DNA of 64,000 bases, from the NCBI RefSeq assembly GCF_003853705.1, contig NZ_QTQI01000019.1, forward strand, positions 1 through 64,000, given 5' to 3'. Positions within the stretch are counted from its first letter, which is position 1. Each line of letters begins with the position of its first letter. This document shows positions 3,670 to 18,098 of the stretch, piece after piece. The translations under genes and the position numbers were made by a program. The notes beneath the pieces are model-generated. The model was not told the origin of the DNA and searched no databases. It saw only the letters and a program-made list of their open reading frames with translations. This DNA comes from Burkholderia sp. Bp8992 (GTDB lineage Bacteria; Pseudomonadota; Gammaproteobacteria; Burkholderiales; Burkholderiaceae).

Positions 3670-4152
3670 TCAGGCCGCGTATGCCCGAATATCGAGCACG
3701 TCGTACCGAATGTCGAAACCGGCTATGCAATCGCTGACGTACCGATGCACTCGCCAATCCCAACCTTCGGGCCCGCCGCCGCCGATGAGCATCAATGGGC
3801 GTGCAAGCTCTGCCTCTCGATGTCGGGCGATGCCGCGTAGTGTTCGCCTGTCGAGCCAACTCATATGTGGCCTTCCATCAGGGTGCGTATGCCAGTCTCC
3901 CAGATAAACCGCGCGTCCCGATGATGCCTCGAAAATATCGTCGAGCCGATGGCACTGCCAGTCATGATCGGGGTGAAATCGCTGGCGCTTGTGCCGGGCG
4001 GCCGGTCCTGGTCCGATAATGTGCTGAACAACCGGCTCATTGTTACTGGCGACATATCCAACTAGGATGCCCCCCGTTTCGAGCGGATACGCGCGGCGAG
4101 CCTCATCAAGCATCTCGTCGAGCGCGGGCGCGTCAATCCAAAGCTGGCTCAT
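3670..4152 (-). CDS. JAB/MPN (JAMM) metalloprotease, Cap3-like deconjugase
   Basis: A 160-residue JAB-domain protein. Glu25 (LETGGILVGY) and the HTHP element with His88 and His90, followed by Ser98 and Asp101 (H-x-H-x7-S-x-x-D), form the complete JAMM zinc site, so it should be active. JAB proteases in bacterial ubiquitin-like systems cut the bond between a modifier and its target, or process the modifier precursor. The start at 4152 (MSQLWID) is chosen because its ATG overlaps the stop of the E2-E1 gene (ATGA); a longer reading to 4209 would overlap it by 60 bases. The CBASS partner Cap3 is the closest described analogue, but no cyclase gene is present here. Confidence 0.85.
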   Translation of the reverse strand: MSQLWIDAPALDEMLDEARRAYPLETGGILVGYVASNNEPVVQHIIGPGPAARHKRQRFHPDHDWQCHRLDDIFEASSGRAVYLGDWHTHPDGRPHMSWLDRRTLRGIARHREAELARPLMLIGGGGPEGWDWRVHRYVSDCIAGFDIRYDVLDIRAYAA

Positions 4153-5894
4153 ACCCGCGAGCTGCAGACCAGACAGTCCTGTCTCGCAGCCAAAACATAA
4201 GTCGTCCAATCAGGCGCAATTGACATCCCTTCTCTCTGGATATCGGCAACCGCGACGTCCCACGAAAAGTCTGGATATCCGTCATGCGCTCCCGAACATA
4301 GAGTCGCGACCGCCAAACGGCTGGCGAGGTTGGCGATCGCATCACTATCGATCCCTGCACCAATGAACGTGGGTTGGGAGCACCCGCCGGGCTGGATTTC
4401 ATCTGTACCGGCATCTGCCGGCAGTCGGATCGTCTTATCCTCGAGACCGCGAAGAAAACAATGCCAACAGCCGTTCGAACTGCCCGCCCTGATTCGACCG
4501 ACGATGCCGCCTGCAGCGCCGTGCGTCGTCGTCAGCCAAACATACGGCTTCCCGAGCTCACGAGCGAGATCTGCCAGGAAGTGACTTACCCGGTGATTCG
4601 CGGCTGCGTCAATGACGATATCTGCCTCGGTCGCCAGCTGCCGGAGGATCGCATATTCAGAAACGCGATTGTCTCCGGAGGGCACTCCGATGCGAAGATT
4701 ACAGCCACGCACGGTCGTGTATGGATACTCATTGCCGATGTGCAACGCCAGAGCGGTCGTCTTCTGGAGCCCTGCGTACTGCCATCCCAACGCCCACCGC
4801 ACCGTATTTCCGACCTGCAAGTTATCGCAATCGACGAGTTCAAGCCGGCCGATTCCTGCCCTTGCCAGTTGGAGACAGACGGGCGATCCCAAGCTGCCTA
4901 GCCCAACAATCAACGCGGCCTTGTCGCGCATCGGTGTCAAAAATGGCGCGCGCCGCAGCCAAGCTTGCTGGCCTCCCCAATCCGCTCGCACAAAGTCCAC
5001 GCGAAAGACAGCCGGACGCGATCGCTTTGCTTCTCGCGTCACACGTACGGACAAGAATATCCAGTCATCCGCGGAGTGCCGCCAGGACACTTCGTCGGGA
5101 TAAACCACACCGACTACGATGACGTCGCCCCGCTTCGCAGACGAAAGCATTTTCCCCAGTTCAGGAAGCTTAGCTTCTATCTGGCGGAATACATCTTGCG
5201 CGGCGGTCTCGAAGGAACTGACCTCCGGCCTTTTCTCCAGCCTCAGCCAAAAACCGTTCGAACGGACTGCGAAGGCCGGTATCTTCGCCGCGAAAGTCAC
5301 GAGTGGCTTGTTGTGCATGTCGCTTATCGACGCAACGACGCCATTGACGAAACACCGATCTGACCATCCGGGCGGCGCAGCACGAAGCAGTAGGTTAAGC
5401 CGCCCTGCTGACACCTCCGCCGGCGGGGTTTCGTCCGGAACGACGACCGCACATTCCACCGCATACGGCAAGAACGACGACAAAGGCTCGCCAACATGAT
5501 CCTCTGCTTTCGCGATGGCCTCAGCAGCTGCGCTACTGTTGTTAACTTCCAAAATCGCTGGCAACTGCTCCTGAATCAGCGTCGCCAGCGAATCGTGCCC
5601 GGGACGCCACTCCTCTCCCTCTCGCGCCAAAAGGCAGAGATTTTGCCCAAGAGGGTGCTGGTGGCGCTGAAACTGACCGGGATCCGTCGTCACCGCTGGC
5701 ACGAAGTATGGATACATATCCGGGTAACTGGCCGTGAGTGCCAGCACCCCATCTCCGTGCGGCACGTCAACATGTACCACCAGCTGCCCCGCCTCCATCG
5801 CAGCGGCGTCAATCGACCAACGATATCCCAGTCGCTCCAGCGCCTCCTTCTCCCTGGAGAACGCAGCCGGATAGCGGTCCCACCAGGCTTTCAT
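4149..5894 (-). CDS. E2-E1 fusion: ubiquitin-like conjugation enzyme
   Basis: A 581-residue fusion. Residues 1-115 look like an E2 (UBC-like) domain: YPDMYPYFVP, then HPLGQNLCLL with Cys87 as the candidate catalytic cysteine. After a linker domain, residues about 322-550 form a ThiF/E1 adenylation domain: GLGSLGS (331-337), VDCDN (354-358), Arg366 and Lys378. A GGCSQPTFIG segment holds Cys505, a candidate thioester cysteine. CWHC (476-479) and CLVC (574-577) can bind zinc. The order E2 then E1 matches CBASS Cap2 and related predicted systems. It should activate a C-terminal carboxylate and pass the protein to a target. It lies 2 bases after the His-rich gene and overlaps the JAB gene. Confidence 0.85.
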   Translation of the reverse strand: MKAWWDRYPAAFSREKEALERLGYRWSIDAAAMEAGQLVVHVDVPHGDGVLALTASYPDMYPYFVPAVTTDPGQFQRHQHPLGQNLCLLAREGEEWRPGHDSLATLIQEQLPAILEVNNSSAAAEAIAKAEDHVGEPLSSFLPYAVECAVVVPDETPPAEVSAGRLNLLLRAAPPGWSDRCFVNGVVASISDMHNKPLVTFAAKIPAFAVRSNGFWLRLEKRPEVSSFETAAQDVFRQIEAKLPELGKMLSSAKRGDVIVVGVVYPDEVSWRHSADDWIFLSVRVTREAKRSRPAVFRVDFVRADWGGQQAWLRRAPFLTPMRDKAALIVGLGSLGSPVCLQLARAGIGRLELVDCDNLQVGNTVRWALGWQYAGLQKTTALALHIGNEYPYTTVRGCNLRIGVPSGDNRVSEYAILRQLATEADIVIDAAANHRVSHFLADLARELGKPYVWLTTTHGAAGGIVGRIRAGSSNGCWHCFLRGLEDKTIRLPADAGTDEIQPGGCSQPTFIGAGIDSDAIANLASRLAVATLCSGAHDGYPDFSWDVAVADIQREGMSIAPDWTTYVLAARQDCLVCSSRV

Positions 5895-6229: not shown

Positions 6230-6269
6230 TCAATCTTGGCCTACAATGTGGTGCGGAGGACTACCTTAT

Positions 6270-7118
6270 ATGAACCTGCCCCGAGACACCCAGCGCGAGC
6301 GGCTGTACTACATCGAATTTCTGGCCCTATTTTCTGGACAAGTGAGCAGGAAGGACCTGACTTTCCGGTTCGGGATTAGCGAACCTGCTGCAACCAAGGA
6401 CCTATCGCTCTACGCAGAGTTAGCCCCTTCGGTGCTGAGATACGACCTGCGCCGGAAATGCTACGTTTTTGACGGCGGACAGCCATACTTCGAACACAAC
6501 GTCGAGCAGGCCCTGCATGCGTTAGCGGGCGACGGCGCTGTCGATTTCGATCCTTCGAGAACAAAGCGAATCCCTGGTTGGGTAAGCACAAGCATCAAGC
6601 GTCAGGTTCCGCTGGAAATCGCTGCGACTCTCACCCGCGCTATCGATCAGCAACAGTTTGTTATTGCTGAGTACACCTCACTAACGACTGGATCTCACTC
6701 CCGAAAACTCTCACCGTTGGCTCTCGTGAATGACGGCCTACGCTGGCACATTCGGTGTTTCGACCACGAAAAGGAAGAGTTTCGGGATTTCGGGCTCACT
6801 CGATTCACGAGTGTCGAGGAACGTGGCAGTTCCGATGTCGACTTGTCAAAAGATCGTGACTGGAACACCGAAATAATGTTGCGTCTTACCCCACATCCCC
6901 AGGCCCTTCACCCGGAAACGACATATGCTGACTATGACATGAAAGACGGCGCCAAGACTGTCACGCTCCGTGCTTGCCTAGTGGGATATTTTTTGCGTCA
7001 TTGGCATGTTGACTACTCCCCAAACGCATCCGGCAACCCGCGCGCGCAACAGCTCTATCTCGCGAATCGGAGTGAAGTGATTGACGCCGGTACTCCGGCA
7101 TGGGCGCTGCAACCTTAG
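6270..7118 (+). CDS. WYL-domain transcriptional regulator (BrxR/CapW-like)
   Basis: A 282-residue regulator. The N-terminal winged helix (RLYYIEFLALFSGQVSRKDL, then FGISEPAATKDLSLY) is followed by a WYL domain near residues 130-210 (QQFVIAEYTS, then RKLSPLALVNDGLRWHIRCFD, then FRDFGLTRF). The C-terminal extension resembles BrxR/CapW proteins, which repress phage-defence operons until a ligand binds the WYL domain. The ATG at 6270 is preferred over 6246 because GCGGAGGA lies 9 bases before it. The gene is divergent from the E2-E1/JAB operon, across the inverted repeat at 6195-6229, and probably controls it. Confidence 0.85.
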   Translation: MNLPRDTQRERLYYIEFLALFSGQVSRKDLTFRFGISEPAATKDLSLYAELAPSVLRYDLRRKCYVFDGGQPYFEHNVEQALHALAGDGAVDFDPSRTKRIPGWVSTSIKRQVPLEIAATLTRAIDQQQFVIAEYTSLTTGSHSRKLSPLALVNDGLRWHIRCFDHEKEEFRDFGLTRFTSVEERGSSDVDLSKDRDWNTEIMLRLTPHPQALHPETTYADYDMKDGAKTVTLRACLVGYFLRHWHVDYSPNASGNPRAQQLYLANRSEVIDAGTPAWALQP

Positions 7119-7340
7119 GTGACTAGGTCGGAGCAGTTGTGAAGAATGACGCGACGTCTTCATCACCGGTAACGTAATCGCCCTTTCGGAGGCACGATGC
7201 GCTCTTGATACAATGATGTGATCAGCTCGATCTTGCTGGCTCGCCGTCGGTCCAGCAGGGAACATGCGGACGTCCCGGTACGCCGAGAAAGCACGAGATC
7301 ATCGTCTACCCAGACGCTAACGAACACTAGCCAATCAAAG

Positions 7341-7871
7341 ATGCAAGATATCGAATTCTATCGCGCAAACGAAAAACCATACGGCGTTTTCAGTAACCTG
7401 TATAAACGCGCAATCGTATTTGAAGGCATCGAGTATCCCACGTCAGAACACGCCTATCAGGCGGGCAAAGCCAGAAAGGACTCAGTTCGCGATTGGCTCA
7501 TGGCTGCGCCCTCACCCTCGCTGCTTGCGATGGCGGCGCATGGACTGTATGTGTGGGACGTTCACCCTGACTGGTCCAAAACCAAATTCGCCAGGATGAA
7601 ACAGGTACTGCATGCCAAATTCACCCAGCACCAGGACTTGCAGGAGATTCTGCTTTCGACAGGCGACGCAAGACTGGTAGAAACCGCAACGGTTGACAAT
7701 GCGGTCAATCGGCTTTGGGGACAGGTGAACGGTGTCGGGAAAAATATGCTGGGGGTCTTGCTGATGGAGGTCCGCTCAGAAATCAGGGCATCGCTTGTCA
7801 AACCGTCCCGGGCAAAGACAAAGCCCGCCCTCTCCCGCCGGAAATCAAACCGGGAAAAGCTCACAGCATAA
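7341..7871 (+). CDS. NADAR family protein (YbiA/RibX-like N-glycosidase)
   Basis: A 176-residue NADAR (DUF1768) protein: IEFYRANEKPYGVFSNLY, FEGIEYPTSEHAYQAGKA, then NRLWGQVNGVGKNMLGVLLMEVR. These are the family's conserved N-terminal, Glu-containing and C-terminal elements. Family members cleave N-glycosidic bonds of ribose-phosphate compounds: YbiA acts on early riboflavin intermediates, and others remove ADP-ribose from guanine. The start MQDIEFY at 7341 gives the normal length; the frame is open further upstream without homology. It converges with, and overlaps by 27 bases, the end of the PfkB gene. Its chemistry fits the nucleotide-sugar theme of that operon, but the link is inference. 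Confidence 0.85.
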   Translation: MQDIEFYRANEKPYGVFSNLYKRAIVFEGIEYPTSEHAYQAGKARKDSVRDWLMAAPSPSLLAMAAHGLYVWDVHPDWSKTKFARMKQVLHAKFTQHQDLQEILLSTGDARLVETATVDNAVNRLWGQVNGVGKNMLGVLLMEVRSEIRASLVKPSRAKTKPALSRRKSNREKLTA

Positions 7872-8954
7872 CTTCGCGGGCTTTCGCGGCGGGATATGCA
7901 GTCCAACGCCGGAGTACGATGACCTGCCGACCGCCTGCGCGGATTCATAAGCATCGCGCCAATCTCCGGCTTCCCAGATTGCATCTGGGTCACGGGCTTC
8001 CATCAGATCAGCCAAGGCCAGCAACTTGTCTCTTACCTCATATCGGGCCAACCCACGTGCCCCTGAATGCATGCAGTTCAGGGCGGCCAGTGCCTGACCG
8101 AACCGAAGAGACGCTGCAAGCGTTGGTGTGTTCAATTCTCGCGATGAACGGCCCCCGTATAACGCGTAAAGCAAACCGGCAGTACACCAGTCACCCGCTC
8201 CGGCCGTGTCAGCCACACGCGGGACACTGAACGCCGTCAGCGTCCGCCAACTCCCCTGCGGCATGTCGGACGCCACCCTGAAGCGAAGTCCCTGTGCGCC
8301 CAGTGTCTGAATAACCACCTCAACATCCGAGCAGTCAAACGCCGCCAGTTCCGTGATTCGTTCGTCCGCGTACTTCAGGATGTGACACGCATCGATCGCC
8401 CGCTGAAAATCCGCCGTTCTGACAGCAACGGCGGATGGCTCGAACACGACTAACGCCCCCCGACTACGGTAGTTCTCCGCCAGATTAAGCGACCAGTCAG
8501 TGACGCGATCAAAGTAGAAAACATCCGGCCGTTCGATCTGCCGCAGCACCGTATGGCAGTACGCGTCCCCAGCCTCGGACGCAAACCCCCGCTTCTGTCC
8601 ACAAAAGGGGCACGAGAAACTGAATCTGTGGGTACATTCGTGATCGCCGGGCCACTGGTAGACAACCGGCGTATGTGCATGGTCTTCGTGCCTGATGAAC
8701 CGGGTATCCGCCCGAAGAACCTCGAACTCACGGCGGATGCGCCTGCCGGCAACATCATCCCCGAGCCTCGCGACCGGGGCGCTCGACCAGCCAAGGAATG
8801 CGAGAATAGCCAGGACATTCCCTGCCGAGCCGCCCAATTCGGCCCGCACGCTGGTCCTATCCTCGCCCAGGAGGACATCCAGCGCCAGCAGACCTGTCCC
8901 CACGACGTGTGGTCGCGTGTCAGACCTTTCCGGCAAGCTCAATCGAATCGTCAT
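7845..8954 (-). CDS. PfkB/ribokinase-family kinase with Cys-rich insertion
   Basis: A 369-residue ribokinase-fold kinase. GGSAGNV (41-47) is the N-terminal PfkB signature and DTAGAGD (249-255) the C-terminal one, with Asp255 as catalytic base. It should therefore phosphorylate a sugar or nucleoside with ATP. Residues 105-120 carry an unusual insertion, HECTHRFSFSCPFCGQ, with Cys107, Cys115 and Cys118 able to form a zinc knuckle near where the lid usually lies. It is the last gene of the five-gene operon. The start at 8954 (MTIRLS) overlaps the preceding gene by 35 bases; an ATG at 8969 is also possible. Substrate unknown. Confidence 0.8.
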   Translation of the reverse strand: MTIRLSLPERSDTRPHVVGTGLLALDVLLGEDRTSVRAELGGSAGNVLAILAFLGWSSAPVARLGDDVAGRRIRREFEVLRADTRFIRHEDHAHTPVVYQWPGDHECTHRFSFSCPFCGQKRGFASEAGDAYCHTVLRQIERPDVFYFDRVTDWSLNLAENYRSRGALVVFEPSAVAVRTADFQRAIDACHILKYADERITELAAFDCSDVEVVIQTLGAQGLRFRVASDMPQGSWRTLTAFSVPRVADTAGAGDWCTAGLLYALYGGRSSRELNTPTLAASLRFGQALAALNCMHSGARGLARYEVRDKLLALADLMEARDPDAIWEAGDWRDAYESAQAVGRSSYSGVGLHIPPRKPAKLCCELFPV

Positions 8955-10035
8955 AGGGAACCCCAGCAAGCCAAACGTGCCACAAGTGGTTGGGCTTTTG
9001 AACAGTCAGCCCTGCGGGAGGTGCTGAGGCAGTAGTATACCCGATCGTCTCTACATACAGCATCGGGAGGTCCAGGTCGATCGCAGCCAGCAGCATTCCC
9101 AAACTGCCCATGCGCCAGCCGTTCGGCGAAAGCACCGTGATCGCTGTCTGCTTGGTCGCCTGAAATACCTCCTTGCGCGCGGAGTCCATCCTCGAAATCG
9201 ACTGAAAGACATCCATCGGGTCCGATTCGTGCGCGTAGATGATGTTCAGATGACTGCTCTCCCAGTCGCCAAGGAGGAGATCTCCAAACTCGAAGAGCAG
9301 ATCGTCTCCGCGCCGGGGACGCGCCGACGGAAAAGGTACAATCGGACAGACTTCCGCCACCGGAGCGTTTGCCGATAGTGCCTGAAACATGATGCTCATC
9401 TGAGGTAGTGAGCTCTCTGCCAGTTGCGGCACCCACAGCTTCAGGTTGTCAGCGCTGACATCAAGCCCCATAGTTCCCTGAAATCCGTGCATCCACTCGG
9501 CACGGTCATTGGATTCCGACTCCAGCCTGATCTCACGATGATCGTTTGTCGCCATCAGAACGTGAACGTTTGCTCCAGACTGCATGCTGCGCTCAATGGC
9601 CTGCTTGACGAGGGGAAAGCATATCCCGCGCGACATTCCTGTCGCGTCGATGACGACGTCAGCGTAATCGCCTTCGTACCAGTTGTCCGCTGCACGGGCA
9701 GCGACGCGCCCGCCGACCGTCGCACCGTCGTCGGCCACGATGCGCACGTCCTCGAACCGGAGCTGCTCCCGCGGTATTGTTCGCTCGAGGTACGCAACAT
9801 GGCTGGCGCCAATGTCATTCAACGTCTTCGAGCTATCGCGCCGTCTTTCCACCATAAAGCGGAAATCAACGCATTTTGCCGCGGCCAGCTCAGTCGCAAA
9901 ATAGAGGCTGCTCGTCTCAATCCCGACGGTCCCGATAAATAGCACGCGCCTTGAGTTCATCAGGTGTTCCGACAGAAAGGGAAGCACGTCGGCGTCGCTC
10001 TGGGCGTAGCACCTGTCGCGGGAAAAACGATTCAT
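8920..10035 (-). CDS. unrecognised protein of the PRTase operon
   Basis: A 371-residue protein without a family I can name. Residues 31-50 (VLFIGTVGIETSSLYFATEL) look like a first beta-strand, loop and helix of a Rossmann-like fold. A second strand, YADVVIDATGMSRG, sits near residue 125, and another helix-strand unit follows near the C-terminus (LLAAIDLDLPMLYVET). The overall feel is of a nucleotide- or cofactor-binding alpha/beta protein, but no catalytic motif is clear. The ATG overlaps the ATPase stop (ATGA). MNSRRVLFIG (residue 26) is an alternative start. It is probably an enzyme or sensor specific to this system. Confidence 0.7.
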   Translation of the reverse strand: MNRFSRDRCYAQSDADVLPFLSEHLMNSRRVLFIGTVGIETSSLYFATELAAAKCVDFRFMVERRRDSSKTLNDIGASHVAYLERTIPREQLRFEDVRIVADDGATVGGRVAARAADNWYEGDYADVVIDATGMSRGICFPLVKQAIERSMQSGANVHVLMATNDHREIRLESESNDRAEWMHGFQGTMGLDVSADNLKLWVPQLAESSLPQMSIMFQALSANAPVAEVCPIVPFPSARPRRGDDLLFEFGDLLLGDWESSHLNIIYAHESDPMDVFQSISRMDSARKEVFQATKQTAITVLSPNGWRMGSLGMLLAAIDLDLPMLYVETIGYTTASAPPAGLTVQKPNHLWHVWLAGVPYDDSIELAGKV

Positions 10036-11942
10036 TCACTGATACTCGCAATAAGCTCCGACAAGTGGCCCTCACAAAAGCCACCACGCCCAAACGTCAG
10101 TCCGTGCTTCAGGATCGGAAGTCCACCCAGTTGAAACAGGCACCATGTCCGTCGTTTGCATTCATAGTTCTCAGTGAGAGAAAGCGCGTTATAGGCAAGC
10201 GCGTAGTGCAAAACAACCACTAGATTGCCCCCATCCTTCTGGAAACGATCCATTTCGGACTGAGGTATCCCGAACGCATTGGCACCGTCATCCAGCGGTG
10301 CGTTCGGTTCAAGAGTGCGGCCCCTGCAGCGGGACGCGATGAATTCGACAAGCCGGCGTACTGCATCACTGTGCGGGAAATTCCAGCGTTCGATCGTCGA
10401 AGCCGCCTGCCGGACCAGGATTTCATTTTGAACCTTCGCCTCCAGTCGAGGCTCTCGCCCGCGCACAATTCTAGTTTCCACGTTGTCCACCAATGCACCC
10501 GCCAGCTGGATAAATTGCTCGATATTCTCGCTACTCGCATCGACCAAACGATCAAACCCGTAGTAGAAAGGCTTACCATAGTCATGGAGTAACTGGAGGT
10601 TGGCACCAGCAATCAACGAGGCGTTCACTGAACGTGACGCTACCGGCTCATCCGGTCGCAACTCAAGCTCCTCGGGTTCCGAAGAAAATAGCTCTGTCTG
10701 AGGGGTACGACGAGACTCGCGGTGTATCAAGATCCGGAGCAGCGCCTGCCGGGTATCATCCGGTAGTTCAGCAGGAATCCATGACCGGATGAGATCAACA
10801 CGATTTGCGGCAAACCCACTCTCATCGATCACCCTCTTGACCGCAGCAGTCAGTTGCCGCATGTCCGCGGACTGCAATACAGGATCCTTCGTCGACAGAC
10901 AGTCCTCAAGACGGATCGACTGCCTGCGCAACGTGGGCATCTGTTCGATATACCGCTTTGATATGTCCTTGACCGTCGCCTTAAACGCGCGCTTGTCCGA
11001 TGCACCTTTCTGCATGAGCTTGAGCACCCAGTCGCGGTCCCGTGTACTACCCGCGGCACTGACAGACGCCCCCTCAGGATCCGACGTCAACGCACGCCGG
11101 AAGACATCGTGGCCAATCGCATCGACGCGCGTGACCAGCCATCTGGCAACCTTCAGCTCCCGCCCCTGCAGCCACTGCTCAACATCCGCGAACTGTTCAG
11201 GATGCAATTCATGTGCATCATCGACAATTGACAGCGGCCTCATGGTGATTTCGCCGCCGTCAACCCCCGCGATGGCCGGTATGCGAATCGCTTCGATGAT
11301 CGAAAAGGCCTCATAGGAACTTTGCGGGCCGATCTCGGCCAATTGGTGCTCCGCGGGTGGCACCAGGGCAGTGACGATCCGAAATATCCGTGCCTCGACT
11401 GACCGCGCGTAGTCTCGAAAGGCAAGCGTATCTTCGGCGCGAATAAGCCTCGCCTGAACCTCAAATTGCTCACGCGCAACTATCTTGACCTGCGAAAGAT
11501 CCGCACCGGCCCCCTCAATCTTTCTCAACCATCCAAGTACTGAGCGAACCTGGATCAAGGACCGCAGAAGAGCGGACTTCACCTTGGCCGAATACGGCAA
11601 CTCCCAGATATCCCGCATATCGGGCGTTGTTGCGAGTCGAAAAGCCAGTATTCGCGGCCGAAGATCCTCAATGACCAGACACTCAGTCAAGGCACGTGTT
11701 ACGTCCTTGTGGTCTGTACTGGGCAACGACCTCAACAAGGCGACAACGGTGTCGAGTTCGATCAGTCGCGCAATCGTGGTCTTGCCGCTACCCGGTGTTC
11801 CGACCACAATGACGAGTCTGTCAAAGAACGATGCGGCGTTGCTTTCAAAGAACCGTCTGAGCGGCTCCGGGCTGAGAATAGATAGTAGCGCGCCTGGCGC
11901 ATCAAAATATTCCGTGGCGCGTTTCTTGAACGGATTATCCAT
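10032..11942 (-). CDS. P-loop ATPase, ORC/CDC6-like
   Basis: A 636-residue ATPase. Walker A is GTPGSGKTT (48-56), Walker B PLSIVDDAHE (236-245), and a possible sensor follows in RWLVTRVDA (267-275). The rest is mostly helical. The layout resembles the ORC/CDC6-like AAA+ ATPases that I recall as partners of phosphoribosyltransferases in predicted conflict systems; this cannot be checked here. It may sense nucleic acid or a ligand and control the enzymes beside it. It overlaps the PRTase gene by 8 bases upstream and the unrecognised gene by 4 bases downstream. Confidence 0.75.
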   Translation of the reverse strand: MDNPFKKRATEYFDAPGALLSILSPEPLRRFFESNAASFFDRLVIVVGTPGSGKTTIARLIELDTVVALLRSLPSTDHKDVTRALTECLVIEDLRPRILAFRLATTPDMRDIWELPYSAKVKSALLRSLIQVRSVLGWLRKIEGAGADLSQVKIVAREQFEVQARLIRAEDTLAFRDYARSVEARIFRIVTALVPPAEHQLAEIGPQSSYEAFSIIEAIRIPAIAGVDGGEITMRPLSIVDDAHELHPEQFADVEQWLQGRELKVARWLVTRVDAIGHDVFRRALTSDPEGASVSAAGSTRDRDWVLKLMQKGASDKRAFKATVKDISKRYIEQMPTLRRQSIRLEDCLSTKDPVLQSADMRQLTAAVKRVIDESGFAANRVDLIRSWIPAELPDDTRQALLRILIHRESRRTPQTELFSSEPEELELRPDEPVASRSVNASLIAGANLQLLHDYGKPFYYGFDRLVDASSENIEQFIQLAGALVDNVETRIVRGREPRLEAKVQNEILVRQAASTIERWNFPHSDAVRRLVEFIASRCRGRTLEPNAPLDDGANAFGIPQSEMDRFQKDGGNLVVVLHYALAYNALSLTENYECKRRTWCLFQLGGLPILKHGLTFGRGGFCEGHLSELIASISE

Positions 11943-13044
11943 GGTCAGCGTGTCGCTTTTTTCGGGAGAACAGTGGTCTCATCTGATGCGAGGGCGGTAC
12001 GCGGTCAGGTCCGGATGTCGCCCATAGAATCGCGACCGAGTTGTTGGGCGCATTGTGATAAAGCACGACAGGAAGTCCGCACTGTCGATATCCGTACCAG
12101 ACATTCTTCCCGAGATGCACGTCCTGAATCGAAGGGTCATAGCAGTCTTTAAGCAACTTGACCAGATCCGCGGGGCCGTCATCGTCAATCACAATGTCGT
12201 TGCTAAGCACGGCAGAAAACGTCGATTCAAACCGGAATGCTCCGGTTAGCGCCCGGAACCGTCCAATGGCATCGTCCACAGTTCCCGTCGCACGGCTGGA
12301 GCCCAGGTAGTGGTGAACGTGGATACAGCAATCCACGGTAAGCGATGTACCGAGCCGCCCCTTGTTCTGTTCGCAGAAGACAGGGATCTTCCCCTTCCAT
12401 TCACCCTTATCGTTCTGCCGGATCAGCGTGGCACCCGACGCGGTGAAATCATCGATCAGACAGACGCGTTCAAATAATGCGTCCTCGTCGCAGAAGCCCA
12501 GTTTGTCCAGACGCTCACGCAATGCCTCGTTCAACTTCTTCCACTTCTCGTTTGATATCTCGCTGGCAGCGACAACCTGCTCCGTGGAAACACGCCCTTC
12601 GTTATCCCGGCGGAAAATATCGATTTTTGCTCCGTCGCTCAACCCGACGTAAAGCGTCCGGATTCCGATCAATTCGAGGCGACGTTCAGCCGACTTGTTG
12701 CCCCATGTTCTATACAGGGGTACACCCAAATGAGTTGCCACTTCGGTGCGCATGCAACGCAGAAGCACCGGCATTGTCAGATTCACCAGATGGTGCATCT
12801 CGCCCTGACTGATAAATACAAGCCGCCGTCGAAGAAAGGAATAGGCCGTCGTGCGATCCTTGCTAGTGAACTGCCCAAGCCAGGCAAGAAGGTTGACATA
12901 GAAACGCGCTCCAGGACTATAGCCCTGGTAGTGGTCATATTTAGCGCCGACCATCAGCCGCAACCATGCAAATTCTTCCGTTGCCCGGGTCTCGTCCCAC
13001 TCCATCAGGTCTGCCAGGAGGCGCATGGCAAGTTGTGCCTTCAT
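11935..13044 (-). CDS. phosphoribosyltransferase-fold protein (PRTase-CE-like)
   Basis: A 369-residue protein with a type I PRTase signature, VCLIDDFTASGATLIR (194-209), whose DDFTASGAT is the PRPP-binding loop. An N-terminal helical segment contains YSPGARFYVNLLAWLGQF. PRTases transfer ribose-5-phosphate from PRPP to a base. It lies between the SIS-HAD fusion and the P-loop ATPase, with overlaps on both sides (ATGA upstream, 8 bases downstream), so the three products probably act together. The pairing with an ORC/CDC6-like ATPase matches the predicted PRTase-CE conflict systems I recall from comparative genomics. Activity and substrate unproven. Confidence 0.8.
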   Translation of the reverse strand: MKAQLAMRLLADLMEWDETRATEEFAWLRLMVGAKYDHYQGYSPGARFYVNLLAWLGQFTSKDRTTAYSFLRRRLVFISQGEMHHLVNLTMPVLLRCMRTEVATHLGVPLYRTWGNKSAERRLELIGIRTLYVGLSDGAKIDIFRRDNEGRVSTEQVVAASEISNEKWKKLNEALRERLDKLGFCDEDALFERVCLIDDFTASGATLIRQNDKGEWKGKIPVFCEQNKGRLGTSLTVDCCIHVHHYLGSSRATGTVDDAIGRFRALTGAFRFESTFSAVLSNDIVIDDDGPADLVKLLKDCYDPSIQDVHLGKNVWYGYRQCGLPVVLYHNAPNNSVAILWATSGPDRVPPSHQMRPLFSRKKRHADHG

Positions 13045-14984
13045 TTTGCAAACCCCGGCACTGTCAAAATTGCACGAACATGTTCGATAAACTCCGGCGC
13101 GAACCGCAACGCCCCTCCGTCGACCACAAGCGCTTTGAGGTAAAATCGCGTGCCCTGTGCGCCAATAAGGCCTTGAGGCAGAAAATTCCAGCAGGCATCC
13201 CTTGCAATTGAGACGCCACCTACACTGAGACCCAGGCCCGCATTGAGAAATTCGTAATCGTTACCCTCGATGTCACCCGAATCTCCAAGCCTGAGAATTT
13301 CGTCCTCGCGATCACAACCAACGGTCGCGGCAATGGACGAAACGACCTTGTCCTTACCTGCAGATTCGGTGACCACGTCTATCGAGTGACCTGAATAAAA
13401 AATTCGCCACCCGTCATACCCTTTGGCGTGGAGCCATTGGCGCACGTATGCCCCAACGCGGCACTTCGCCGAATGATCACGAATGCGGAGGCTCAACTGC
13501 CCTTCACCGATTTTCGGCGACGACTTCAACGCACCGAGCAGGGTTGACTCAGTCAACCACTCAGTCAACTCGACGAACCTCGGGTCAGGCTTACCCTGCA
13601 CCGGCGGTGCCTCGGCGAGACCCGATACAACCGACCCACTATAAAAACCGATCGTGATCCACTTCCACAGCTCTTCACCAAGCTTGGTCCGCAGATCGCC
13701 ATGCAGCGAATCGCCTCGACCTGTTGCAAAGCCGATCGGAAATCCGGCACCTGCGATACGCCCTATTTCCGATAGCAGGCAGGCATCAAGCCCATCAAAC
13801 CGGAGGTCCGTATTGCAGAACGTTCCATCGAAATCACATACCAGTGCACGGAATCTCGCCCGCTCAAGCCGGTCGGCGAACGCAACGCCTGCCTGCCTGA
13901 ATGTTTCGTAGGTCGCGCGGGGCGCATCCACGTTTCGTACTTTACGGACCAGAGCTGGGGGCCACCCAGCTCGTCCACGAACGGCCTCACGTACATCCGA
14001 CGCGTGCAATGCCCGCCCGAACTCCGGAACATCGGGTTGCCCTGGATCAATCCCGCGGCGTTGGGAAAGGATATCGGTTAGCAGGATTGCATCAATCACG
14101 CTCACTATTTCCGCGAGTGCGTGTTCTCCTGGCAGGTCGAGCCGAACGACAGGCACATCTGCGGGAAACGTCCCTATCGTCGCCCGCGCCAGTATCCGGT
14201 CTCGAGGTGACTCGAATGACACAAAGCACGGCGCGAGTTCCCGATTGGCCAGTTGCAGGTGACGACCGTGTGCGAACTGCCGGTAATCAACTTTCTGGAC
14301 CACACCGATCGCCGATTCGGCAATTTTTGATTCGATATCGATCGCGCCAGCTATGCCATCCCTGCCATAAAGCACGCAAATTTGACGGCCGCCAGTGACC
14401 GCGTCCTCGAGTCCCTGTTCCGCAATCTGGCGGCGACGCCGCTGAAGCCACTGCTCGTCGATTTGCTCAAGGTATCGATCCAAGCCATCAATCGCGTATC
14501 CGCGAGCGATCAGGATCATGGTCGCGATCAGGGAATTGGTCGCAAGATATCCATCTTTTCCCCACGGAGCGGCGAAAGCGGCAACCGTCGCGCCCGACGC
14601 CCGAAGCCTGTCCGCCAGCGGGCTTTCCGGTGCCAAGGTCAGAGCAAACCCAGGAATCTCCAGCGTCAGCATGTGCCGGCCGGCAGCGAGAACATCCTTG
14701 TTCTTGCCTTCGGCCGACACCAGAACGACTGCGCAGTCCTCTGGCCTGGTCTCATGCGCGAAAAGGTCGACCGGGGTTGACTGACGCGAGATCCGACCGA
14801 ACTCCGATTCATGAAGTTGGGCAAGAAAAGCCGCCGACGTCGACGACCCCCCCGAACCGACCGCAAGCAGACTTCGCCCCGAATTGCCAGCGATAACGCG
14901 AGCCAAAAGGACAACGTTTTGCTCAAGCGCCCAACGTATTGCGCTCGGCAGGTATGCAATTTCCTCGGCGAACTGCTTTCCCAT
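13041..14984 (-). CDS. double SIS domain - HAD phosphatase fusion
   Basis: A 647-residue fusion, first gene of the operon. Residues about 20-165 form a SIS sugar-phosphate domain with GSGGSSTSA (43-51). Residues 195-310 look like a second SIS unit, as in GlmS-type double-SIS proteins. Residues 378-600 are a HAD phosphatase: DFDGT (384-388, nucleophile Asp384), ATGRGDS (motif II region), Lys546 and GDSGDIEGND (567-576). SIS domains bind or isomerise phosphosugars and the HAD part should remove a phosphate. Together with the kinase and PRTase, this points to sugar-phosphate or nucleotide chemistry. The stop overlaps the PRTase ATG. The ribosome binding site is weak (CCGGGG). Confidence 0.85.
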   Translation of the reverse strand: MGKQFAEEIAYLPSAIRWALEQNVVLLARVIAGNSGRSLLAVGSGGSSTSAAFLAQLHESEFGRISRQSTPVDLFAHETRPEDCAVVLVSAEGKNKDVLAAGRHMLTLEIPGFALTLAPESPLADRLRASGATVAAFAAPWGKDGYLATNSLIATMILIARGYAIDGLDRYLEQIDEQWLQRRRRQIAEQGLEDAVTGGRQICVLYGRDGIAGAIDIESKIAESAIGVVQKVDYRQFAHGRHLQLANRELAPCFVSFESPRDRILARATIGTFPADVPVVRLDLPGEHALAEIVSVIDAILLTDILSQRRGIDPGQPDVPEFGRALHASDVREAVRGRAGWPPALVRKVRNVDAPRATYETFRQAGVAFADRLERARFRALVCDFDGTFCNTDLRFDGLDACLLSEIGRIAGAGFPIGFATGRGDSLHGDLRTKLGEELWKWITIGFYSGSVVSGLAEAPPVQGKPDPRFVELTEWLTESTLLGALKSSPKIGEGQLSLRIRDHSAKCRVGAYVRQWLHAKGYDGWRIFYSGHSIDVVTESAGKDKVVSSIAATVGCDREDEILRLGDSGDIEGNDYEFLNAGLGLSVGGVSIARDACWNFLPQGLIGAQGTRFYLKALVVDGGALRFAPEFIEHVRAILTVPGFAK

Positions 14985-15073
14985 CCCCGGTAGTCTCTCG
15001 GATTCTCGTTTATCTGCTGTCTTTGAACCGCTTACGTAGGGCCACTACATTAACATTAAATCGCGGTCTCAAC

Positions 15074-15262
15074 ATGGAAGTAAAACGATCCTTGCGCCTG
15101 CTTCCAGCGGCGGACCAACAGTGGAAGCGAGATTGGTTATCCTTTTGCGTTCGGCTAAGGCAGCCGCGATGGAACATCGCTCCGCGCTTTGCAACTTGCT
15201 GCGCAGTGCTCCAAGCGCGGGAACAACCGATAGGACTGTACGCCCTTTCGCCGCAAATGTGA
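15074..15262 (+). CDS. possible small ORF, 62 aa
   Basis: An ATG opens a frame of 62 codons starting MEVKRSLRLLPAADQQWKRD, with several Trp and Cys residues. No ribosome binding site is obvious, no family is recognised, and the opposite strand is also open. It may be a remnant at the border between the cargo operon and the conjugative backbone. Confidence 0.25.
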   Translation: MEVKRSLRLLPAADQQWKRDWLSFCVRLRQPRWNIAPRFATCCAVLQAREQPIGLYALSPQM

Positions 15263-15494
15263 GCCGTACCTGAAAAGATCGCACACGAACCTATGGGACG
15301 CCTCCCGGCGCTAACGCACCGGGACCGGGCTTTCGCGCTGCGCGCCGAGCTGCGTTCCGCGTCTCACCCCTGTCGGGCATCAATCCCTAGCGCAACCGTC
15401 AACCCCATTCATCTTCGAGTTCAGCGTGGCCTGTACGGCTACGCTGCTGCGCGGCGCCCGTGCCTGGTCAACCCGAGGCACGGCATGCACCCGA

Positions 15495-15756: not shown

Positions 15757-16590
15757 ATGCAACTCGCTTCCTCATTCCACTACAGCGCCCCGATGCTGCG
15801 CGCGGATTCGCCGCTTTCGGATGATCAGATTCGCCTCGTTGCCCCCTCAATCTTCGCGGACGGCAAGCACGAAAGCCGTTCCGAGCGCTATACCTACATT
15901 CCCACCATCGATGTGCTGCGCGGCCTGCGCAACGAAGGCTTTCAACCATTCATGATCTGTCAGACCCGCGTACGTGACACTGGCAAGCGCGAATTCACCA
16001 AGCACATGCTCCGGCTGCGCCATGCCGACCAAATCACCGGCGAGGAAGCCGACGAAATCGTGCTGCTGAACTCTCATGACGGCACCAGCAGTTACCAGAT
16101 GCTCGCCGGCACATTCCGCTTTGTCTGCCAGAACGGCATGGTTGCAGGCGAGAACATCGCCGATATCCGCGTACCCCACAAAGGCAACGTGGTGCAGAAC
16201 GTGATCAACGGTGCGTTCGACGTGCTCGACGGGTTCGAGCTGATCCGAGAACAGAAAGACGGCATGCGCTCGGTAACGCTCGACCGCGACGAACAGCACG
16301 CATTCGCCCGCTCCGCGCTCGCGCTGCGGTATGACCGGACCGACGCCGAAGCCCCGGCTCCCATCTGCGAAAGCCAGCTACTCGCCCCGCGCCGTTTCGA
16401 GGATCGCCGCGACGATCTCTGGACTGTCTTTAACCGGGTGCAGGAGAACCTGACCAAGGGTGGCCTGCATGGCCGCTCCCGCTCGGGCCGCGCGATGTCT
16501 ACACGCCCCATTACCGGTATCGACCAGAACGTGAAGCTCAACCGCGCGCTGTGGATGCTCGCGGACGCGATGCGGCAGATGAAGGCGTAA
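15757..16590 (+). CDS. DUF932 family plasmid/ICE protein
   Basis: A 277-residue DUF932 protein. Recognisable elements are SERYTYIPTIDVLRGLRNEG, FTKHMLRLRH, LNSHDGTSSYQMLAGTFRFV and VCQNGMVAG. These proteins are very common on conjugative elements and plasmids and may be relatives of phage recombination or anti-restriction proteins; the biochemical role is not established. The start follows GGAGAAAATC. It is the first gene after the 153-bp palindrome and lies 131 bases before the parB-like gene, so the pair may share a promoter. Confidence 0.85.
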   Translation: MQLASSFHYSAPMLRADSPLSDDQIRLVAPSIFADGKHESRSERYTYIPTIDVLRGLRNEGFQPFMICQTRVRDTGKREFTKHMLRLRHADQITGEEADEIVLLNSHDGTSSYQMLAGTFRFVCQNGMVAGENIADIRVPHKGNVVQNVINGAFDVLDGFELIREQKDGMRSVTLDRDEQHAFARSALALRYDRTDAEAPAPICESQLLAPRRFEDRRDDLWTVFNRVQENLTKGGLHGRSRSGRAMSTRPITGIDQNVKLNRALWMLADAMRQMKA

Positions 16591-18046
16591 CGACTGCTAC
16601 GGGCGGCGCATCCGCGTCGCCCTGCTGTTCGGTTTTGCGCCATGACGCCAGTCGGGTCACGTCCTGACGCATCCGCACCTTACTGGCCCGGCATCTTCCT
16701 TCCTACTATCAGGAGTCGATCATGCAAGCCCAATCTGTTGAAACCGTCACATCTGACGCCGCCGAATCCTCCGCCGTGCTCGAAACCGACTTCGGCAACG
16801 AGCAGCCGGTCGTGACGGTGCCGTATTCCAGCCTGCAACGTTCACCGTTGAACGTGCGCACGAAACTACCATCCGGCATCGCTGGACTGGCAACCAACAT
16901 CCGCGCCAAAGGACTACTGCAAGACCTCGTAGTCCATGAAATCAAAAGGACACGCGGAAAGCACCGCAAATATGGCGTGTGCGCAGGTCAGCGACGCGAA
17001 GCCGCTCTCGATCTGCTGTTCGAACAGAAGCACATCGCCGCCGACTATCCGGTACCGGTGCGCATCGTCAGCGAAGGCGAAGCGCTCGCCATATCGCTGA
17101 TCGAGAACAGCGAGCGGGAAGGACTCGACCCGTTCGACGTGCTGCGCGCGTATCGAATGCTGGCCGACGAAGGTCGCAGCGTCGATTACATCGCCGCGCT
17201 CTTTTCAGCGTCGCCTATTACCGTCAAACGGCGCATGAAGCTCGCCAACGTGTCGCCCAAGCTACTGGCGCTGCTGCGCGAGGACGCAATCACGCTCGAC
17301 CAGCTTGCCGCACTCGCGCTCGCAGACGATCACGACACGCAGGAGCATCTGTGGTTCGATGCCAACGAGTGGCAACGTCAACCGCACTATCTGCGGCAGG
17401 CAATCACCCGAGCTGAGATCGATGCGAGCCGAAGTCGCCTCGTGCGCTTCGTCGGCCTCGACGCCTACGAGGCAGCAGGCGGCTATGTGCGCCGGGACCT
17501 CTTCAGCGACGACGAGCACGCGGGCTATATTGCCGATGCCGACCTGCTGCAGAACCTTGCCGCACAAAAACTCGACGCGGCAGCCGAGACGATCCGCGCG
17601 GAAGGCTGGGGTTGGACGGAAACGCGTGCCGAACGGGACGTGTTGGAGCTGAACCGTTACGGCAGACTGCACCCGGCCCAGCGCCCCTACACCGACGAAG
17701 AACAACGCGAACTAGACGCACTCATCGCGCAGCGGACCGAACTGGGCAACAAGCTCGATGCACTGGCCGATGACGACGAGGACGCCTATGACGAAGCCGA
17801 ACGCCTCGACGCCGAAAGCGATCAGGTGGAAGCCGCAATCGGCGCGCTCGAAACCCGTGCCATCGTATGGGACGCAGCGCAGATAGCAGAAGCCGGTGCG
17901 TTTGTGATCGTCGGCCCGCAGGGTGAACTGGTGATCGAGCGCGGTCTCGTGCGGCGCGAGGACAGCGCGGCACTCGATGCGGCAGGCGCGACCATAACTG
18001 GCACGCCCGAGGCAAATGCGCCGGACACGGCAGACGCACCGGCCAA

Positions 18047-18053
18047 GATCAAG
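18047..18053. repeat. left 7-bp target-site duplication of the IS
   Basis: GATCAAG, identical to 19259-19265 on the other side of the insertion. It gives the exact insertion point in the parB-like gene. Confidence 0.9.
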
Positions 18054-18098
18054 TGCGGTGGACTAGACTAAATCTGACAGTGGTTGGTTTTTCATGCT

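Follow-up and report, generated by a model that had tools for sequence, protein, structure and literature searches.

What brings sugar-phosphate enzymes and an ORC/CDC6-like ATPase together in a single operon? The question is raised by a window of 64,000 nucleotides from Burkholderia sp. Bp8992 (contig NZ_QTQI01000019.1, positions 1 to 64,000), in which five minus-strand open reading frames (ORFs) encode a SIS-SIS-HAD fusion, a phosphoribosyltransferase (PRTase), the ATPase, a fourth protein and a PfkB-family kinase (Table 1). An earlier sequence-only reading had placed five overlapping genes here, and the ORF list confirms both their positions and the overlaps of 4, 8, 4 and 35 bases at every junction. 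The last overlap is counted from the ATG at 8954, which is used in this annotation; the ORF list starts PfkB at the TTG at 8969. The core unit of the operon is a trio of effector, ORC/CDC6-like ATPase and CARF protein, in which a constant ORC/CDC6-like and CARF6 pair follows an exchangeable effector, here PRTase-CE. Within a predicted immune class that is already known, the operon is a variant whose methyltransferase has given way to SIS-SIS-HAD and PfkB (plus NADAR). In our estimate, there is about an even chance that it acts as a mobile immune module of the abortive-infection type, which belongs to the ORC/CDC6-like plus CARF6 class and uses the sugar enzymes as a self-protection or control arm.

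Families and conserved residues of the operon proteins

The fold calls that the sequence-only reading had made for the PRTase, the ATPase and the kinase all pass the Pfam cut-offs, and the two profile families that it had named, PRTase-CE and ORC-CDC6, were both recovered. The PRTase matches PF24390 (E=1.1e-13, with a whole-protein score of 52.2 bits against a cut-off of 27) and the PADLOC model PRTase_III-A (E=1.8e-13). Its phosphoribosyl pyrophosphate (PRPP) loop is intact, with D199, F200 and G204 invariant in 18 of 18 alignment rows. The PRTase-CE family is predicted to act as a nucleotide-degrading effector. The ATPase matches PF24389 with 39.8 bits against a cut-off of 27, and the Walker residues P50, G51, G53, K54 and D241 are invariant in all 17 rows. 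The kinase matches PF00294 (E=7.3e-16; 58.8 bits against 25.8), and its top NCBIfam models, ribose-1-phosphate kinase (E=6e-12) and IolC, both remain far below cut-off. Four kinase residues, D253, G256, G258 and D259 in alignment numbering, are invariant in 13 of 13 rows; D259 corresponds to D255 of the protein. The HAD part of the fusion matches HAD profiles only below their cut-offs (S6PP, E=0.006), and its motif residues D384, D386, T388, K544, G567 and D568 are invariant in 16 of 16 rows. The active-site residues that had been singled out beforehand (D384, the PRPP loop, Walker A and D255 of PfkB) are thus kept in every row.

The SIS part resembles glucosamine-6-phosphate-deaminase-like SIS chains of the PDB (E=4e-5), a likeness reached via the family profile only. 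K143-D144-G145 is invariant in the 16-row alignment. The catalytic glutamate of SIS isomerases presumably lies three residues before the conserved His, and this position is occupied by Q, N or S in all 16 rows. The SIS pair may be either a catalyst or a binder. None of the five operon proteins reaches an NCBIfam cut-off, and no metabolic step is named by these models. Sequence relatives in the PDB are absent for the PRTase, not clear for the CARF or ORC protein and, under a strict 1e-20 limit, absent for PfkB.

The product of gene 4 has no match in the Pfam scan. It matches the PADLOC CARF6 group over nearly its full length (residues 8–357 of 371, E=2.2e-150), and the top PDB fold matches of its predicted structure (VIA-align) are CARF proteins that sense cyclic oligoadenylates. 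The structural model is of low confidence in the middle third, and the PADLOC name implies three CARF domains. Both its fold and its profile match place gene 4 in the CARF6 group of CARF proteins, with near full-length likeness to the PADLOC CARF6--CARF_CARF_CARF proteins (models PDLC01910, PDLC01916 and PDLC01924). These models name the protein alone, and no PADLOC system with the present partners was found in the scans. The CARF6 classification is reportedly that of Makarova et al. 2020, and the Pfam names PRTase-CE and HD-CE are said to come from Nicastro et al. 2023. Unlike the type III CRISPR CARF effectors (Can2, Card1, Csm6, Cam1 and Cad1), gene 4 contains no catalytic effector domain recognised by the Pfam and PADLOC scans.

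A sixth gene next to PfkB belongs to the NADAR family (PF08719, E=4e-28, 99.2 bits against a cut-off of 35.1), and its likelier start is the ATG at 7341. In a comparison of the window with locus L006, no internal stops were observed in the six genes, which show nonsynonymous (pN) values of 0.11–0.26 and synonymous (pS) values of 0.68–0.84.

Recurrence of the trio and the place of the methyltransferase

Loci with the SIS-HAD fusion (SIS type) were compared as a set of 27, which includes the window and does not recount the three copies (L001, L004 and L062) of G001, the genome nearest to the window's. Profiles built up from the window proteins were used to score the families in the fetched loci. 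The 27 are not independent, since several of them (L014–L016, for example) are closely related. The five genes, proposed in the sequence-only reading as one self-contained system, recur together outside this strain. All five families are present in 23 of the 27 loci: in 22 within the fetched stretch and in L017, where tblastn locates the SIS-HAD gene just before it. No PfkB match was found in the 18–21 kb of L020, L055 and L066, which form a single clade in the ATPase tree and have the layout NADAR-SIS/HAD-PRTase-ORC-CARF. In L066, a NOV_C-domain gene (14331–15476) follows CARF. L064 is interrupted by a contig end, and L019 has a disrupted copy, in several frames. The PRTase, ORC and CARF genes are contiguous and in the same order throughout the 27 loci. 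SIS-HAD and PfkB vary in placement, lying before the trio, after it or on either side, and NADAR adjoins the operon in 15 loci. Nucleoside 2-deoxyribosyltransferase genes were also seen a few kb from SIS-type operons (L013, 924–1799; L014, 14944–15504).

The operon is rare in the collections searched. A tblastn search over 72,556 plasmid records matched SIS-HAD in 17 records and ORC in the identical 17 accessions; the 16 records with CARF are a subset of these. The neighbourhoods of 16 of the 17 (all but CP039919) were inspected, and 8 of the 16 operon-bearing records are typed conjugative. Carriers belong to the Alpha-, Beta- and Gammaproteobacteria, and one is an actinobacterium. SIS-type loci are carried by at least four genomes other than G001 (G580, G769, G577 and G428) in a sample of 398 from the phylum, as judged from 12 examined regions, with the weaker of the 83 matching genomes mostly outside them. 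The G580 copy sits in a single contig of 5.4 Mb. Closer to the window, G001 is the one genome with CARF out of 41 relatives, and the PADLOC CARF6 model has two matches in the 369 genomes of the class, one in G001 and a weak, broken one in G048. Within the 385 genomes of the class of G769, full-length SIS-HAD occurs in two, G769 and G862; in both, an ORC gene lies 1.2 kb from SIS-HAD on the same strand, with space for a PRTase gene. Only fragments were found in G805 (at a contig start) and G936 (64 residues). E. coli genomes gave no close DNA match to the operon.

L009 and L017 each contain two PRTase-ORC-CARF trios, one for each deep SIS clade, and a single SIS-HAD place per record was found by tblastn. 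One SIS-HAD gene alongside two trios is in keeping with a control arm that both share. In L009, the second PRTase gene is divided between frames.

A second class of loci lacks the sugar enzymes. Eleven sister loci have the ORC-CDC6-like and CARF6 genes but neither SIS-HAD nor PfkB; L051–L054 come from the phylum sample, and seven plasmid loci were hand-picked, five from 152 tblastn records and two from 4. Among the 152 plasmid records matching the sister-class ATPase, 129 are Klebsiella, of which one was taken. The effector comes first in the sister loci, followed by the ORC/CDC6-like gene and by CARF6 in last place, where CARF6 models match in all 11. The effector is PRTase-CE in L051 and L078–L082, HD-CE in L052, L054, L083 and L084, and a metallophosphatase in L053. 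The pairing of PRTase-CE with an ORC/CDC6-like ATPase, which the sequence-only reading had linked to predicted conflict systems, recurs in these loci. As side observations, dGTPase and dUTP diphosphatase genes lie just upstream of PRTase-CE trios (L051, 5345–6721; L078, 4365–5030), and L054 carries the PADLOC candidate genes PDC-M33A/B.

A DNA methyltransferase was observed beside or near the trio in 10 of the 11 sister loci, 2 of these without Pfam confirmation, and its type tracks the effector: N6 in the six PRTase-CE loci and C5 in the four HD-CE loci. A Pfam N6 or C5 methylase lies within 5 kb in 8 of the 11 sister records. The methyltransferase of L081 is known from the record annotation alone. 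That of L079 is identified by a home-made profile (1e-35) and an NPPF motif in an open frame; the annotated gene starts too late to include the motif, and a Pfam scan of it found nothing. L053 shows no methyltransferase in 11.5 kb, and its contig stops just after the CARF gene. In the SIS-type records, G001 included, no PF02384 or PF00145 methylase was found within 5 kb (0 of 21), and the nearest Pfam methylase on the same contig is 14.9 kb away. The home-made methylase profiles match nothing in positions 1–24000 of the window and only one of the 27 SIS-type loci (L066). SIS-SIS-HAD and PfkB, often with NADAR, occupy the place that the methyltransferase has in the sister class.

Ten loci combine effector, ORC, CARF6 and methyltransferase (L051, L052, L054 and L078–L084). 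They share with the window operon the gene order, the CARF6 models and, in six, the Pfam effector family. The window operon and its kind differ from them in three ways: the methyltransferase's place is filled by SIS-SIS-HAD, PfkB and often NADAR; the PRTase is longer; and the ATPase falls in a clade of its own. In an ATPase tree of 37 proteins (26 of the SIS type, 6 of the N6/PRTase type and 4 of the C5/HD type), each of the three types forms one side of a branch with 99–100% support, and the SIS-type ORC proteins are split off with 100/100 support. The order among the groups is unsure because long branches meet between them. The SIS type arose once and is a mobile, conserved, once-formed gene alliance. 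The earlier suggestion that the SIS-HAD fusion and a fourth gene of no known family mark a distinct type stands for the fusion, which does mark its own clade, but not for the fourth gene, which is CARF6.

The mobile setting of the window copy

The scanned ORFs identify the window as conjugative mobile DNA, with a coupling protein, VirB-type ATPases, ParB, a ParA-like protein and an integrase. Beyond NADAR lies a WYL regulator (6246–7118, plus strand), neighboured by a ThiF/E1-type protein of 581 aa (4149–5894, minus strand) with PADLOC E1-E2 matches; these two genes may constitute a second small conflict system. Upstream of the operon, the plus strand (15757–18071) carries DUF932 and ParB_N genes, followed by an integrase-core gene, as part of the mobile backbone.

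Table 1. Genes of the operon and the adjoining NADAR gene, with coordinates in the window.
Feature	Position	Strand	Remarks
SIS-SIS-HAD fusion, 647 aa	13041..14984	-	Tandem sugar-isomerase (SIS) domains, then HAD-IIB-type phosphatase
PRTase-CE phosphoribosyltransferase, 369 aa	11935..13044	-	PF24390; PRPP loop kept
ORC/CDC6-like AAA+ ATPase, 636 aa	10032..11942	-	PF24389; Walker A and B kept
CARF6-type sensor protein (gene 4), 371 aa	8920..10035	-	PADLOC CARF6
PfkB-family kinase, 369 aa from ATG	7845..8954	-	PF00294; 35-base overlap with CARF gene
NADAR-family gene	7218..7871	+	PF08719; convergent with PfkB, 27-base overlap of PfkB 3' end

A phage origin of the operon was considered and rejected. 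No relatives of CARF or PRTase were found in 50,697 phage records, and a PHROGs scan of SIS-HAD, PRTase, CARF, PfkB and NADAR (ORC was outside it) matched NADAR alone. A CARF scan of IMG/VR found nothing; a scan with the PRTase alignment found four putatively viral contigs with the operon. Dependence on type III CRISPR was rejected for G001 only, in which no Cas10 palm match was found. For that genome, this is a further difference from the type III CRISPR CARF effectors.

Possible roles of the sugar enzymes

CARF proteins bind small nucleotide signals, and both CARF proteins and ORC/CDC6 ATPases are defence-linked families. According to excerpts of PMC12839542 and PMC10853773, BREX, Ssp and other conflict systems include ORC/CDC6 ATPases as components associated with DNA, and a figure legend of a Science 2026 paper (PMC13092281) lists PRTase among the domains of validated defence systems. 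The operon was not found among the literature matches listed, a search that most subscription papers lie outside, and the sections seen of PMC12669027, PMC11833690, PMC4012209 and PMC7159879 contain nothing on it. Based on family membership and neighbourhood, the operon is assigned with moderate confidence to an immune system of this class.

From the established anatomy, co-occurrence and exchange, we infer a mechanism in four steps. Incoming or replicating DNA would be surveyed by the ORC/CDC6-like ATPase, which probably sits on DNA as a ring. Together with CARF, a putative reader of a small nucleotide-type ligand, it would tell self from invader. An alarm would release the PRTase, which may consume PRPP or break nucleotides and thereby stop both phage and host. 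SIS-HAD, PfkB and NADAR would act as the self-protection or control arm: a phosphosugar or ribosyl compound, which they would make, maintain or remove, would silence the trio or undo its product. The analogy is with the sister class, in which the methyltransferase would mark self, the ATPase and CARF would sense, and the effector would attack nucleotides; by this analogy, the sugar arm would be a protective or control part. The best pointer to a ribosyl adduct is NADAR, a family linked to the reversal of guanine ADP-ribosylation (PMC11125620 and PMC9503650).

Several points weigh against this mobile immune module with a protective sugar arm. Both defence and the reaction steps are read from genes, and a DNA mark or CARF ligand made by the sugar arm would be conjecture. 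To our knowledge, the domains of the sugar arm are not DNA modifiers, except for NADAR members that act on ADP-ribosylated guanine. NADAR and PfkB appear not to be strictly needed, since NADAR adjoins only 15 of the 27 loci and one clade lacks PfkB. No dense defence island was seen round the window copy. The exchange itself also has blemishes: a methylase-like ORF lies 1.3 kb from the NADAR gene of L066 on the opposite strand; the count obtained with the home-made profiles is partly circular because they were built from nine sister genes; the independent Pfam check misses the methylases of L079 and L081; and three genes and 3.6 kb separate the methylase of L054 from its trio. The SIS-type genomes G580 and G428 give Cas10-palm matches just above the cut-off, and a CRISPR link is thus excluded solely for G001. 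G447, which carries the sister system, has a strong Cas10 match. An E. coli control also gives a Cas10-palm match, which makes GGDEF cross-matches likely.

A more specific form of immunity would resemble restriction-modification. SIS-SIS-HAD and PfkB would write or maintain a self mark of sugar or ribosyl chemistry and NADAR would erase it; the mark, placed on nucleic acid or kept as an 'all-clear' metabolite, would be read by ORC/CDC6-CARF6 before PRTase-CE kills. The methyltransferase slot would then have been taken over once by metabolic enzymes. We regard this version as tentative and somewhat unlikely. Alternatively, the sugar enzymes could stand upstream of the sensor: when infection upsets the ribose-phosphate pools, SIS-HAD and PfkB (and NADAR) would produce or trim a signal, either a nucleotide or a phosphosugar, that CARF binds before the ATPase activates PRTase-CE. 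The ligands of the CARF family, the cyclic-oligoadenylate sensors among the best PDB matches and the single SIS-HAD gene that accompanies both trios in L009 and in L017 are consistent with this order of events, and in G001, which lacks a Cas10 match, a signal would need another source. However, the sister trios lack sugar enzymes, which argues that a sugar-derived signal is not generally required, and the position of the sugar genes is that of methyltransferases, whose role in restriction-type systems is to protect and not to raise the alarm. A signalling arm is possible but doubtful.

An addiction module that stabilises plasmids, with the PRTase trio as toxin, the sugar arm and NADAR as antitoxin and no role against phage, is unlikely. 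The 16 operon-bearing plasmid records, half of them typed conjugative, would suit such a module, as would the NADAR antitoxins of DarT-NADAR operons, which reverse guanine ADP-ribosylation according to excerpts of PMC11125620. The present operon resembles DarT-NADAR in that its NADAR gene adjoins an enzyme that could ribosylate or de-ribosylate; it differs in having a phosphoribosyltransferase family instead of DarT, and NADAR was not seen in 12 of the 27 loci. The plasmid count also reflects the choice of a plasmid collection, and the operon occurs in the long G580 contig as well. Toxin-antitoxin-like modules usually have fewer than five genes.

In a further reading, which is very unlikely, phage replication is poisoned by a nucleotide with an altered sugar, which the sugar arm and the PRTase produce jointly (from a changed PRPP, for instance) and which NADAR destroys as the antidote. 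A SIS isomerase, a phosphatase, a pentose-type kinase and a PRTase could form such a path, the best NCBIfam model of PfkB is the sub-threshold ribose-1-phosphate kinase, and NADAR enzymes are described as ribosyl N-glycosidases in excerpts of PMC9503650; but the sugar arm is absent from the sister PRTase-CE loci, and NADAR is missing from the same 12 loci. The operon could also serve plasmid-borne catabolism or salvage of a phosphorylated sugar or nucleoside, under regulation by the ATPase and CARF. This reading draws on the sugar- or nucleotide-metabolism folds of four of the six proteins and is just as improbable, given the defence-linked families of its supposed regulators, trios found without sugar genes beside DNA methyltransferases, dGTPase or PADLOC candidate defence genes, and the NCBIfam result, on which a gene-by-gene match to a metabolic pathway was rejected.

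The mobile immune module with a protective or controlling sugar arm is thus the favoured reading. In this operon, the CARF/ORC-CDC6 core is tied to a sugar-phosphate enzyme set and not to a DNA methyltransferase. If the sugar arm does provide self-protection, distinguishing self from invader in this manner would be new for an immune system, and the CARF6 ligand would be directly testable by the genetics and metabolomics of a compact, portable operon.

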